Assembly: GCA_003221695.1 (NCBI GenBank)
Contig: QHSX01000057.1
Span: forward strand, 1-64,000
Direction: 5' to 3'
Length of the DNA stretch: 64,000 nt
DNA from: Candidatus Rokuibacteriota bacterium
GTDB lineage: Bacteria > Methylomirabilota > Methylomirabilia > Rokubacteriales > CSP1-6
The stretch's first letter is position 1. Each line of letters begins with the position of its first letter. Of the stretch, positions 32,784 through 35,920 are shown in pieces. The notes beneath the pieces were generated by a model. The model saw nothing but the letters and a program-made list of their open reading frames with translations, did no database searches and was not told the DNA's origin. The position numbers and the translations under genes were made by a program.

Positions 32784-33017
32784 ATGATCCCCCGCGACAT
32801 GGCGCAGGGGCTGCGAGACTTGGTGGGCCGGGCGATGGTCGATCCGGACTTCCTCCTCGAGCTGCAGGGGTCACCGAACGCCCTCCTGGCGGATTACGAG
32901 CTCAGCGACGACGAGCGAGCGACGATTCTCCGGGCGCTCGCACGGCTCGTGAAAACGCCCGCCGGCCAACGCCGGCACGAGTTCCGCAACGCGCTCCTCC
33001 GTCGCGTGGCCACGTAG
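32784..33017 (+). CDS. Small precursor-like peptide (NHLP/LigA-like helical motif)
   Basis: A 77-residue basic protein, MIPRDMAQGLRDLV then GRAMVDPDFLLELQGSPNAL and LADYELSDDERATIL. The pattern R-x-x-x-D-P-x-F...L...P...L-x-x-Y-x-L-S-x-x-E is that of LigA-like and nitrile-hydratase-like leader regions used by several RiPP precursors. The rest (ALARLVKTPAGQRRHEFRNALLRRVAT) is Arg-rich without Cys/Ser/Thr repeats. It sits directly upstream of a cNMP-binding protein and a PqqD/M50-like protein. Precursor, adaptor and unrelated small protein remain possible; I favour a leader-type role without certainty. Confidence 0.6.
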   Translation: MIPRDMAQGLRDLVGRAMVDPDFLLELQGSPNALLADYELSDDERATILRALARLVKTPAGQRRHEFRNALLRRVAT

Positions 33018-33035
33018 GCGCGTGGGGCGCGACCG

Positions 33036-33527
33036 GTGGGGGCGCATCTAGAGTTCCTGCGGGACGTCCGCCTCTTCACCCGGTTCGCGGAGTCGGAGCT
33101 GAGTGCGCTCGCGGAGAGCCTTCACGAGCGGCGCCTGCGCAAGAACCAGCTGCTCTTCCGCGAGGGCGATCCCGGCGATGAGATGTTCATCGTCCGCCAC
33201 GGTGCGGTCCTCGTCTCCAAGGCCATCAAGGGGCGCGTCGAGCAGGTGCTCGACCGGGTGCTCCCCGCCGACTTCTTCGGCGAGATGAGCCTGCTCGACG
33301 GCTCGCCGCGGTCGGCGACGGTTCAGGCCGAGACCGACGCGACGCTGTTCGCCCTCGACCGGCGTGGTCTCGAGCGCCTCATCGACACGAACCCGCGCGC
33401 CGCCGCGGCGTTCTTCCGCGCGCTGGTCCACGTGTTCATCGAGCGGCTCAGGCGGTCGACCCACCAGGTAGCCGAGGCGACGCGCTGGGGTCTCGAGGCG
33501 ACGGGGCTGGATGTGGAGTCGCGGTGA
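33036..33527 (+). CDS. Cyclic-nucleotide-binding domain protein without HTH
   Basis: A 163-residue Crp-like sensor domain: LEFLRDVRLFTRFAESELSALAE, the beta-roll with LLFREGDPGDEMFIVRHGAVLV, and the phosphate-binding cassette FFGEMSLLDGSPRSATVQAETDATLFAL, where GEMSLLDGSPRSATV aligns with the canonical cassette. It ends with a helix (about 118-163) and has no DNA-binding domain, so it probably signals through protein contact. GTG start. Its stop overlaps the start of the PqqD/M50-like gene by four bases (GTGA), strongly linking the two. Confidence 0.88.
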   Translation: MGAHLEFLRDVRLFTRFAESELSALAESLHERRLRKNQLLFREGDPGDEMFIVRHGAVLVSKAIKGRVEQVLDRVLPADFFGEMSLLDGSPRSATVQAETDATLFALDRRGLERLIDTNPRAAAAFFRALVHVFIERLRRSTHQVAEATRWGLEATGLDVESR

Positions 33528-34744
33528 CCGAGCGCCCCGCGCCCGCGAAGCTCGAGCTCCTGGTCCGCCGCGACGACGAGAGCTTCGAGGTCCGCGAGGT
33601 CGGGAGCTCCCTCGGCTTCATCCAGTCGCGCCCCCAGCGGGGGCCCGAGGGCTCCTTCGAGATCTCCGAGGTCCGGTCGTCCGTGGCGCGGGAGCGGTCG
33701 TTCATCCTCAAGAACACCGCGACCGACCGGTTCCTCGTCCTCTCGGAACCGGAGACGTTCCTCTGGGAGCAGATGGATGGCACCACATCGCTCCAGGAGA
33801 TCGCGACCGCCTACGTCCTGCGATACGGCGAGTTCGATTTCGACATCATCCCGAACCTGATCCGGAAGCTCCAGCGCGCCGGGCTCCTCACCCTCGAGCC
33901 GAAATCGCGGCTGCGCCAGACGCTCGCGCGGAACCGCCGCCAGCGCGTGGCGAAGGCGGTCGAGGCGATCCTCACGGGCCTCGAGCGCGTCAACCTCTCC
34001 AGTCGCCGGGTCCAGTCGGGCTTCCAGCGCCTCCACCGCTGGGGCGGCTTCGTCCTGTTCACCCGCGCTGCGACCGTCCTCTGCCTGGCGCTCGGCGTGA
34101 TCGGGGGCGTTGCCGCGGTGGCGCTCGTGCAAGGGCTGGACGACGTCTTCTCGGGCTTCGGGGGCCACGCGCTGGGCGGCGTCCTCGTCGTGAAGCTGCT
34201 CTTCTTCGCGAGCGTCGCCCTCCACCAGCTCGTCCACGGGCTCGCCTGCGTCCACTACCGTCGCCGCGTGCGCGAGTTCGGCTTCGCCTTCCTGCACGGC
34301 TTCGTGCCGACCTTCTACGTGGACGTGACGGACATCTTCATGGCGACTCGGCGGGCCCGCGTCGTCACGGCGGTGTCGGGCGCGCTCGTCCACCTGGTGC
34401 TCGGCGCCGTCGCGTTTCTCGTCGCGGCGTACGCGCCCGTGGGAAGCTTCGCGCAGGCGTTCGCCGCGGCGTCGGGGATCATCCAGTGGCAGGCGCTCGC
34501 GATCTCGCTCTACCCCTTCGGCTTCATCGAGATGGACGGCTACCACGTCTTCGTCGACCTGCTGGGCGTCCCGACGCTCAAGCACGACGCGCTCTCGTAC
34601 GTGAGGGCGCTGCTCGGGGGCCGGGCACGGCTCCGCTCGGGGTGGCTCGAAGCGCTCTGGCTCGCCTACGTCGGGCTCTCGGTGGTCTCGATCGCGGCGT
34701 TTCTCGCCTTCAACGTCTGGATCGTCGTGCGCGCGGTCTCCTGA
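33524..34744 (+). CDS. PqqD-like plus degenerate M50 site-2 protease-like membrane protein
   Basis: A 406-residue protein. Its N-terminal part holds a PqqD-like winged helix (about 60-125: RFLVLSEPETFLWEQMDGTTSLQEIATAY...IIPNLIRKLQRAGLL), the RiPP-recognition type. The C-terminal half has about six helices and resembles peptide zinc metalloproteases (YydH/M50 type): ALHQLVHGLACVHYRRRVREFGFAFLHGFVPTFYVDVTDIF. The canonical HExxH is here HQLVH, with Gln in place of the catalytic Glu; the partner motif MDGYH keeps its Asp. It is therefore probably an inactive or altered protease. It is translationally coupled to the cNMP-binding gene. Confidence 0.82.
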   Translation: MTERPAPAKLELLVRRDDESFEVREVGSSLGFIQSRPQRGPEGSFEISEVRSSVARERSFILKNTATDRFLVLSEPETFLWEQMDGTTSLQEIATAYVLRYGEFDFDIIPNLIRKLQRAGLLTLEPKSRLRQTLARNRRQRVAKAVEAILTGLERVNLSSRRVQSGFQRLHRWGGFVLFTRAATVLCLALGVIGGVAAVALVQGLDDVFSGFGGHALGGVLVVKLLFFASVALHQLVHGLACVHYRRRVREFGFAFLHGFVPTFYVDVTDIFMATRRARVVTAVSGALVHLVLGAVAFLVAAYAPVGSFAQAFAAASGIIQWQALAISLYPFGFIEMDGYHVFVDLLGVPTLKHDALSYVRALLGGRARLRSGWLEALWLAYVGLSVVSIAAFLAFNVWIVVRAVS

Positions 34745-34747
34745 CGC

Positions 34748-35920
34748 TCAGGCTTCCACGTCCCGCAGCAAGGCCTCGATCGCGTCGCCGATCGCGCGAG
34801 CGTGCCGGTCGTCGGCCGCCGGCGGCGCGTCGAGCGCCGCGGCCTGGGCCGCGGGCGGCAGCGCCGCGAGCCGCGCCTGGGCGCGCGCGCGCACCGTGTC
34901 GCCGACGAGCGCGCCGAGCTCCACGAGCGCGGCGAGCGCGAGCGTGCCCCGGGGGCGACGCCCGCGTGTGGCGGTGATCAGCTCGGCGAGCACGCGCCGG
35001 AAGCGCCCCGAGACGCGAATCCGTTCCGCCTCGATCAGGACGAGATCGCGCGCGACCGCGCCCCACTCGAACGCGACCGCGCCTGCGACGTCCTCGATGA
35101 CGGGGACGAGAGGCGGGGCGCTCCCCGCGGCGACGATCGCCGCGACTCCCGCCACGATCTCGGGCCCGATCGGGCTGGTGGGGCATGCGTGCGGCACGGG
35201 TTCGAGGACGCACCGTAGGTCTCCCTCGGACGAGAGGAGCAGATGGTCCTCGAGCGGGCGCCCGAGGGCCCAGAGCGAGCAGAGCACGCCCTCGGGGACG
35301 TCGCGCACACGCCTCGGGGCTTGACGCGTGATGGACTGCCAGTCCGGCCGGTAATAGGTGGTGCCCTGGAACACCACCTTCTCCACGCGGCCGCGACGCT
35401 GGACGTAAAGCCCGTCAGCCGCGAAGAGGCGCTCGTGGGGCGCGGGTGTCCAGGCGAGCCCGCCGGACATGAAAGCCGCGAGCGGATCGGCGGCGTCCGC
35501 AGGCTCGTAACGGAACGACTCGAGGAGCGCCAGAAAGAGCTGCTCGGTCGGGTAGGGGCCGCGGTAGGCGAGGCGAGCCGCGCCCTGCTCGCGAGCCAGC
35601 TCGGCGATCAGGTTCAGCACCGCCGTGCCGCCACCGGGCGGCAGGCGCGTGGGCTCGGCGAGCGGCGGGATGCGATCGATGCGTGCCCAGTCGAGCGCTT
35701 CGAACACGGTGAGGGGTTCCCCCGATGGACCGCCGACTTCCGGAAATCGTTCGGCACGCCACACGCGATCGGCGAGCCCCCAGGGCGCCGCGGTCGTCGC
35801 GCGGGGCTCGATCGCGAGCCACTCGCCGTCGGGCAATCGCACCCGGGCGGATGCGAGCGCGCCGTCGCGGGTCCAGGCGAGCTCGCTCACCGGGTGGCCG
35901 TGACGATCAAAGGACTGCAC
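34748..35920 (-). CDS. Protein of unknown function
   Basis: A 390-residue soluble protein with GTG start that I do not recognise. It begins QSFDRHGHPVSELAWTRDGALASARVRLPDGEW, has central DGLYVQRRGRVEKVVFQGTTYYRPDW (about 170-195) and ends in an Ala/Arg-rich helical region (about 280-390). No signal peptide or membrane segment is seen. It is convergent with the M50-like gene (3 bases between stops) and divergent from the amidase. Codon use is normal for the region. Context is too weak to infer a role; a link to the neighbouring RiPP-like genes is possible. Confidence 0.7.
   Translation of the reverse strand: MQSFDRHGHPVSELAWTRDGALASARVRLPDGEWLAIEPRATTAAPWGLADRVWRAERFPEVGGPSGEPLTVFEALDWARIDRIPPLAEPTRLPPGGGTAVLNLIAELAREQGAARLAYRGPYPTEQLFLALLESFRYEPADAADPLAAFMSGGLAWTPAPHERLFAADGLYVQRRGRVEKVVFQGTTYYRPDWQSITRQAPRRVRDVPEGVLCSLWALGRPLEDHLLLSSEGDLRCVLEPVPHACPTSPIGPEIVAGVAAIVAAGSAPPLVPVIEDVAGAVAFEWGAVARDLVLIEAERIRVSGRFRRVLAELITATRGRRPRGTLALAALVELGALVGDTVRARAQARLAALPPAAQAAALDAPPAADDRHARAIGDAIEALLRDVEA

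Follow-up and report, generated by a model that had tools for sequence, protein, structure and literature searches.

A conserved three-gene unit of Rokubacteria suggests the conversion of a peptide-cutting machine into a binding device under nucleotide control

The PqqD-like RRE fold binds short linear peptides and has been characterised as a binder of leader peptides; in daptides, the modified residue is the C-terminal Thr. The daptide clusters were found via proteins in which an RRE is fused N-terminally to an intramembrane site-2 protease (S2P) (PMC10036551), and a membrane escort protein has been described in TMcin biosynthesis (PMC13252029). In the S2P SpoIVFB, replacement of the catalytic Glu by Gln (E44Q) abolishes cleavage, and the complex of this variant with its substrate can still be purified and its structure solved (PMC11486902). 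A search of the open-access literature found no report joining a cyclic-nucleotide-binding (cNMP) protein, an RRE and an S2P, in line with the view of an earlier note, made by a model from the letters of the present locus, that such an arrangement would be new.

The locus lies on contig QHSX01000057.1 of a Candidatus Rokuibacteriota bacterium (assembly GCA_003221695.1), of which the first 64,000 nucleotides were analysed (the window); the contig is part of a 4.6-Mb genome. On the forward strand a gene for a 77-residue peptide is followed by the genes for a cNMP protein and for a membrane protein with an RRE and an M50-like part. These three reading frames, their coordinates and the four-base overlap of the last two genes were all as the earlier note had given them, and the operon comprises these genes only, with no YcaO, radical SAM or LanM among them. 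The features are as follows:

32784-33017, + strand: peptide gene, 77 residues, with a match to NF038399 (Os1348/NHLP clan)
33036-33527, + strand: cNMP gene, 163 residues, PF00027
33474-33512, + strand: almost invariant tail, cNMP residues 147-159, EATRWGLEATGLD in the window, delimited by column entropy
33524-34744, + strand: M50-like gene, 406 residues, with a match to NF041824 and predicted RRE and S2P folds
33554-33895, + strand: RRE (PqqD-like) N-terminal domain, about residues 11-124, from the model and Foldseek, ends approximate
34223-34237, + strand: HQLVH, residues 234-238, zinc His pair kept and Gln in place of the catalytic Glu, HQxxH in 54 of 54 sequences
34511-34546, + strand: YPFGFIEMDGYH, residues 330-341, third zinc ligand D338 and new E336, from the alignment

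The start codon of the cNMP gene may lie a few codons upstream of 33036. Neither a structured RNA, sought between 32000 and 36000, nor plasmid copies of the unit were found.

Orthologs of the M50-like protein were sought at the protein level in 95 genomes of the phylum. One Rokubacteria family, made up of soil and groundwater bacteria, has them in 55 of its 57 genomes, the window's own included (full length in 54, split by a contig break in one), and none was found outside this family. The two exceptions are G078, without an ortholog, and G066, which has only an HExxH paralog. The order peptide, cNMP, M50 on one strand, which the earlier note had proposed to check, is kept in all 53 full-length relatives, belonging to 23 genera with identities down to 46%, an invariance that excludes chance, sequencing error or gene decay. 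The peptide and cNMP genes are usually separated by 13-21 bases in the 53 relatives, and the cNMP and M50 genes overlap by four bases in 28 loci and by one base in seven, these spacings being approximate because start codons were chosen by script. The genes upstream of the unit vary among relatives and the downstream neighbours (an unknown convergent gene and amidase-like, DedA-like and aroF-like genes) are kept in most, not all, loci; thus the three genes alone form the conserved unit. The convergent gene of the window (34748-35920, - strand), kept in most Rokubacteria loci, codes for a 390-residue protein without a match in Pfam or NCBIfam. The operon was also seen, with the Rokubacteria gene order and 69% identity, on a contig binned as 'Actinobacteria bacterium AC_69' (L106), most likely a mis-binned Rokubacteria contig.

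Outside Rokubacteria, a pattern scan of 84,980 species detected the M50-like family only in 'Deltaproteobacteria'/Syntrophobacter MAGs, and a class-wide search identified this sister-clade version in 8 of 148 genomes (Desulfobacterota-type). The cNMP gene lies directly upstream of the M50-like gene in all eight. No peptide gene was found near these loci by a profile search of all frames, the best E-value being 0.78, for which reason a hidden peptide was rejected. The cNMP-S2P pair is therefore the part common to both clades, and the peptide gene stands beside it in Rokubacteria only. In three sister-clade genomes (L167, L168 and L174), a fatty-acid-desaturase-like gene is located just upstream of the pair on the same strand.

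The M50-like protein matches the daptide RRE-protease family NF041824 over nearly its full length (E 3.7e-26), with 92 bits against a cut-off of 300. A sequence search of the S2P family against the PDB gave chance-level matches only, and the PqqD match of the single sequence had an E-value of 0.011, the RRE being then confirmed by structure search. In the AlphaFold2 model, built from 40 sequences (mean pLDDT 76.7, pTM 0.57), the strand and helix order of the RRE is visible, and the S2P half is of moderate confidence, with residues 333-339 below a pLDDT of 50. Foldseek searches of the PDB matched the RRE part to the leader-bound lasso protein TbiB1 (target TM 0.70, probability 1.00) and to the lasso B1:leader complex 6jx3, and the membrane part to SpoIVFB (probability 0.99) and mjS2P (0.97); E-values of single matches are modest (0.03-0.15), but both leading families are in accord with the HMM search. 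The protein thus combines a winged-helix RRE fold, as the earlier note had supposed for its PqqD-like part, with the HxxxH pair, distal Asp zinc ligand and S2P fold of the S2P/M50 proteins (clan MM), and its prediction as a fusion of an RRE domain with a site-2-protease fold is strongly supported by sequence and model together.

At the predicted active site, the motif reads H234-Q-L-V-H238, at the position where the earlier note had seen it. All 54 family sequences, the window's included, carry HQxxH, and the sister clade reads HVxxH in eight of eight genomes, as against HExxH in 16 of 16 outgroup relatives; with no ortholog retaining HExxH, the catalytic Glu was lost clade-wide and not by accident. 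The zinc ligands H234, H238 and D338, the latter in a DG motif, are invariant. In a tree of 56 sequences, the Q and V types together stand apart from the HExxH types (support 100/100), and each type forms a single group. The simplest account thus places the loss of the Glu in the common ancestor of the Q and V groups or earlier. The rest of the S2P site has been maintained ever since; the dN/dS of the protein is about 0.3, and dozens of its columns are invariant.

Another change lies beside the zinc Asp. Position 336, two residues before this ligand and independent of gap placement, is occupied by Glu in all 40 family members compared, whereas the 16 HExxH relatives all have Lys or Arg there. 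It belongs to an ExDGYH motif found in 54 of 54 family orthologs and to a loop two residues longer in the family than in the HExxH relatives, while position 330 is Tyr in all 40 members versus mostly Asn in the 16 relatives. Since the model is poor at precisely this loop, the swap is a lead and not a result, and Glu336 may be a relocated base or a ligand closing the zinc site, both readings being open; a re-tooled activity would have room here. Of the earlier designation of the protein as protease-dead, the loss of Glu stands for the whole clade, and the swap at position 336, which had been missed, makes the claim probable instead of certain. Very probably, the large protein is not a conventional HExxH protease.

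The window's own genome also encodes an intact paralog with the motif HEFAH. Such HEFAH RRE-S2P paralogs (L085, at about 22.7-24.8 kb of G000:C91; L086, L087 and L090) are preceded by a short ORF that contains a 'LEERIAP' motif and in some cases has a tail rich in Gly/Val and Cys; this arrangement resembles a genuine peptide-processing pair more closely than the studied locus does.

The cNMP protein matches PF00027 (E 1.1e-24, 86.6 bits against a cut-off of 27.5) and has no HTH domain in Pfam or NCBIfam searches, which agrees with its earlier description as an HTH-less cNMP-binding protein. Among solved structures, the regulatory domains of PKA and PKG are closest to it. The phosphate-binding cassette has Glu83 and Arg92 without exception in both clades, and the protein therefore likely binds a cyclic-nucleotide ligand; class III cyclases, which all 57 family genomes encode (11 matches in that of the window), at most make binding of cAMP or cGMP possible. 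An anti-phage role was rejected, as matches to Pycsar components were of the generic cNMP-domain kind. In the dN/dS comparison, the rows for the window's cNMP gene were left out, being shifted by one codon.

The C-terminus of this protein carries an almost invariant tail with the consensus E-x-T-R-W-G-L-E-A-T-G-L-D. Its mean column entropy is 0.12 bits, compared with 0.56 for the nucleotide cassette and 1.07 for the cNMP protein overall, and it is the most conserved 12-residue stretch of the three-gene unit, the best 12-mers having entropies of 0.13 in the tail, 0.18 in the S2P-like protein and 0.51 in the peptide. RW[GA]LEATG was found in all eight sister-clade loci. Among the 57 family genomes, the corresponding DNA pattern is missing only from the two that lack this S2P and present in the other 55; in the class of the sister clade, nine genomes out of 145 have it, namely the eight carriers and one chance match in an unrelated frame. 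The tail occurs only where the S2P partner does. Like the swap at position 336, it goes beyond what had been read from the window before.

The small peptide is related to NF038399 of the Os1348/NHLP clan (E 7e-8), its 32.5 bits lying below the cut-off of 40 and its match covering positions 2-44 of the 63-position profile. This profile is matched by all 32 peptide orthologs scanned (best E 7.5e-11), and at least two operon orthologs exceed its cut-off (G079:C26 with 41.2 bits and G088:C221 with 40.9 bits). A profile of the peptide retrieves the nitrile hydratase alpha chain (PDB 6lk7, E 5.5e-5) and gallate dioxygenase (E 0.009), in keeping with the LigA/nitrile-hydratase likeness first proposed for it. 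The peptide is kept in the operons of the relatives, with identities to the window from 90% to 37% and a dN/dS of 0.2-0.5 in the nearest ones, and is most conserved in its first helices; its lack of conservation, which would have counted against the unit, was not observed. The model is helical almost to the last residue. The C-terminus is conserved as [RK]R[VLW][AS][TM], ending in Thr in most orthologs and in Met in one genus. Neither a GG cleavage motif (ortholog alignment) nor a disordered or Cys/Ser-rich core (alignment and helical model) was identified, and the peptide does not show the order of leader cleavage motif and core typical of RiPP precursors. Several Rokubacteria genomes contain, away from the operon, other ORFs of the Os1348 family with much stronger scores of 72-80 bits (L175-L183; for example G090:C92:11719-11904).

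RiPP biosynthesis at this locus is weakly supported. The earlier note had suggested looking for a co-occurring modification enzyme, and none is conserved in the neighbourhoods of the loci; genome-wide, six of the 57 family genomes have a YcaO gene, and none of the 57 has an NHLM transporter that scores above cut-off. The window's own genome is among the six, with a single YcaO gene (L186, G000:C10:22699-23667). A TOMM-type cluster was rejected for want of a YcaO or NHLM transporter pattern, and a daptide locus for its absent partner genes, the score below cut-off and the lost HExxH. A cryptic pathway, in which the RRE recognises the 77-residue peptide as a precursor, the enzyme is encoded elsewhere and the S2P-like protein serves as an escort or leader holder, nevertheless deserves consideration: all scanned orthologs match the NHLP-clan model, the RRE and S2P have the architecture of daptide DapP (PMC10036551), most orthologs end in Thr like the residue modified in daptides, and the escort protein of TMcin biosynthesis (PMC13252029) sets a precedent. 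We consider it unlikely, given the missing GG and core in a peptide modelled as helical almost to its end, the Met terminus of one genus, the rarity of YcaO, the lack of an NHLM transporter and of any conserved neighbouring enzyme, the absence of the daptide leader motif ELExMEAP, and the Desulfobacterota version of the unit, which does without the peptide. The peptide could instead be a third regulatory subunit, an inhibitor or anti-activator of the cNMP-S2P pair unrelated to natural products, a role consistent with its place in the same operon in 53 of 53 loci, its folded helical model without a core and its conserved first helices, and comparable to that of the proteins that block SpoIVFB, inhibitory partners of S2Ps being known (PMC9042235). 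Without such a gene near the sister-clade pair, this role is distinctly improbable.

The remaining alternatives concern the membrane protein. That it is a degenerate, non-functional leftover, as the lost catalytic Glu could imply, has practically no probability and is already refuted by conservation: the gene is full length in 54 genomes and split by a contig break in one of 57, with its invariant columns and low dN/dS, and the near-universal presence of the unit in the family together with purifying selection indicates that it is not decaying. A re-tooled enzyme, with Glu336 replacing Glu235 as the general base for zinc chemistry, perhaps proteolysis of altered specificity, would fit the exclusive Glu at this position, the loss of the canonical Asn (Y330), the two-residue insertion in the same loop, and the invariant zinc ligands under strong purifying selection. 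However, the migrated base is read from the alignment, the loop is poorly modelled, a role of Glu336 as a fourth ligand that closes the zinc site is just as conceivable, and the E-to-Q change is by itself sufficient to abolish cleavage in a well-studied S2P (PMC11486902), which leaves this enzyme a doubtful candidate. Somewhat less doubtful, though still on the unlikely side, is the broader proposal that the base swap (Glu235 to Gln or Val, Lys/Arg336 to Glu) created a new membrane zinc site controlled by cAMP through the tail, whether for alternative catalysis or as a closed four-ligand sensor site.

The explanation preferred here, to which slightly less than an even chance is given, is a cNMP-responsive receptor or adaptor in the membrane, derived from a protease that once processed peptides. 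We infer the function of the unit accordingly in outline: the best reading of sequence and model is a putative cAMP-responsive, proteolytically silent RRE-S2P membrane receptor. Binding of cAMP or a similar ligand to the cNMP protein would expose or hide its tail, and the RRE would dock the tail, the small peptide or both. The membrane half could then hold a membrane client close to the zinc site and leave it uncut, as a naturally occurring counterpart of the E-to-Q S2P mutants. The most likely ligand of the RRE is the cNMP tail, joined in Rokubacteria perhaps by the peptide; the tail is preferred as the constant ligand because tail and RRE occur in both clades and the peptide in one. Since RREs are characterised as binders of leader peptides, the Os1348 peptide may nonetheless be the real RRE ligand in Rokubacteria; in the preferred model it would there add a second ligand or an inhibitor. 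If the model is true, a RiPP-type intramembrane protease became a component of signalling that almost all members of an entire bacterial family carry, and the peptide-binding RRE domain has a likely non-RiPP use tied to cyclic nucleotide signalling. The unit would also be a warning against taking the mere vicinity of an RRE and a short peptide as evidence for natural-product synthesis.

Among described systems, DapP/MpaP (NF041824) shares the N-terminal RRE and the intramembrane site-2 protease (PMC10036551), but the window protein scores 92 bits where 300 are required, has lost HExxH and is paired with a cNMP protein, and neither the operon nor its neighbours, which vary or resemble housekeeping genes, contain an aminotransferase, decarboxylase, methyltransferase or ELExMEAP precursor. 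SpoIVFB and mjS2P share the fold (Foldseek 0.99 and 0.97) and the His/His/Asp zinc ligands, whereas the present family has Gln or Val for the Glu and a new Glu by the zinc Asp; SpoIVFB, moreover, carries a regulatory CBS domain, in place of which the window has an RRE, no CBS and a separate nucleotide sensor. The Os1348 peptides of the NHLP clan (NF038399) resemble the small peptide through the match of 32 of 32 orthologs (best E 7.5e-11), although the window's copy falls below the cut-off, ends its match at profile position 44 of 63 and has no GG or core. TIGR03896, by name a cNMP protein of a peptide-export context, is the best NCBIfam match of the cNMP protein (E 1.5e-14), with 54 bits against a cut-off of 161 and coverage of positions 133-277 of the 317-position model. 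The iRhoms, which are rhomboid pseudoproteases (PMC3149277), are a case of a catalysis-free membrane protease fold used for regulation; they differ in fold and catalytic class, are eukaryotic and serve as a working analogy only. Each part of the unit has a known relative, and what is new is their combination, together with the tail and the remodelled site.
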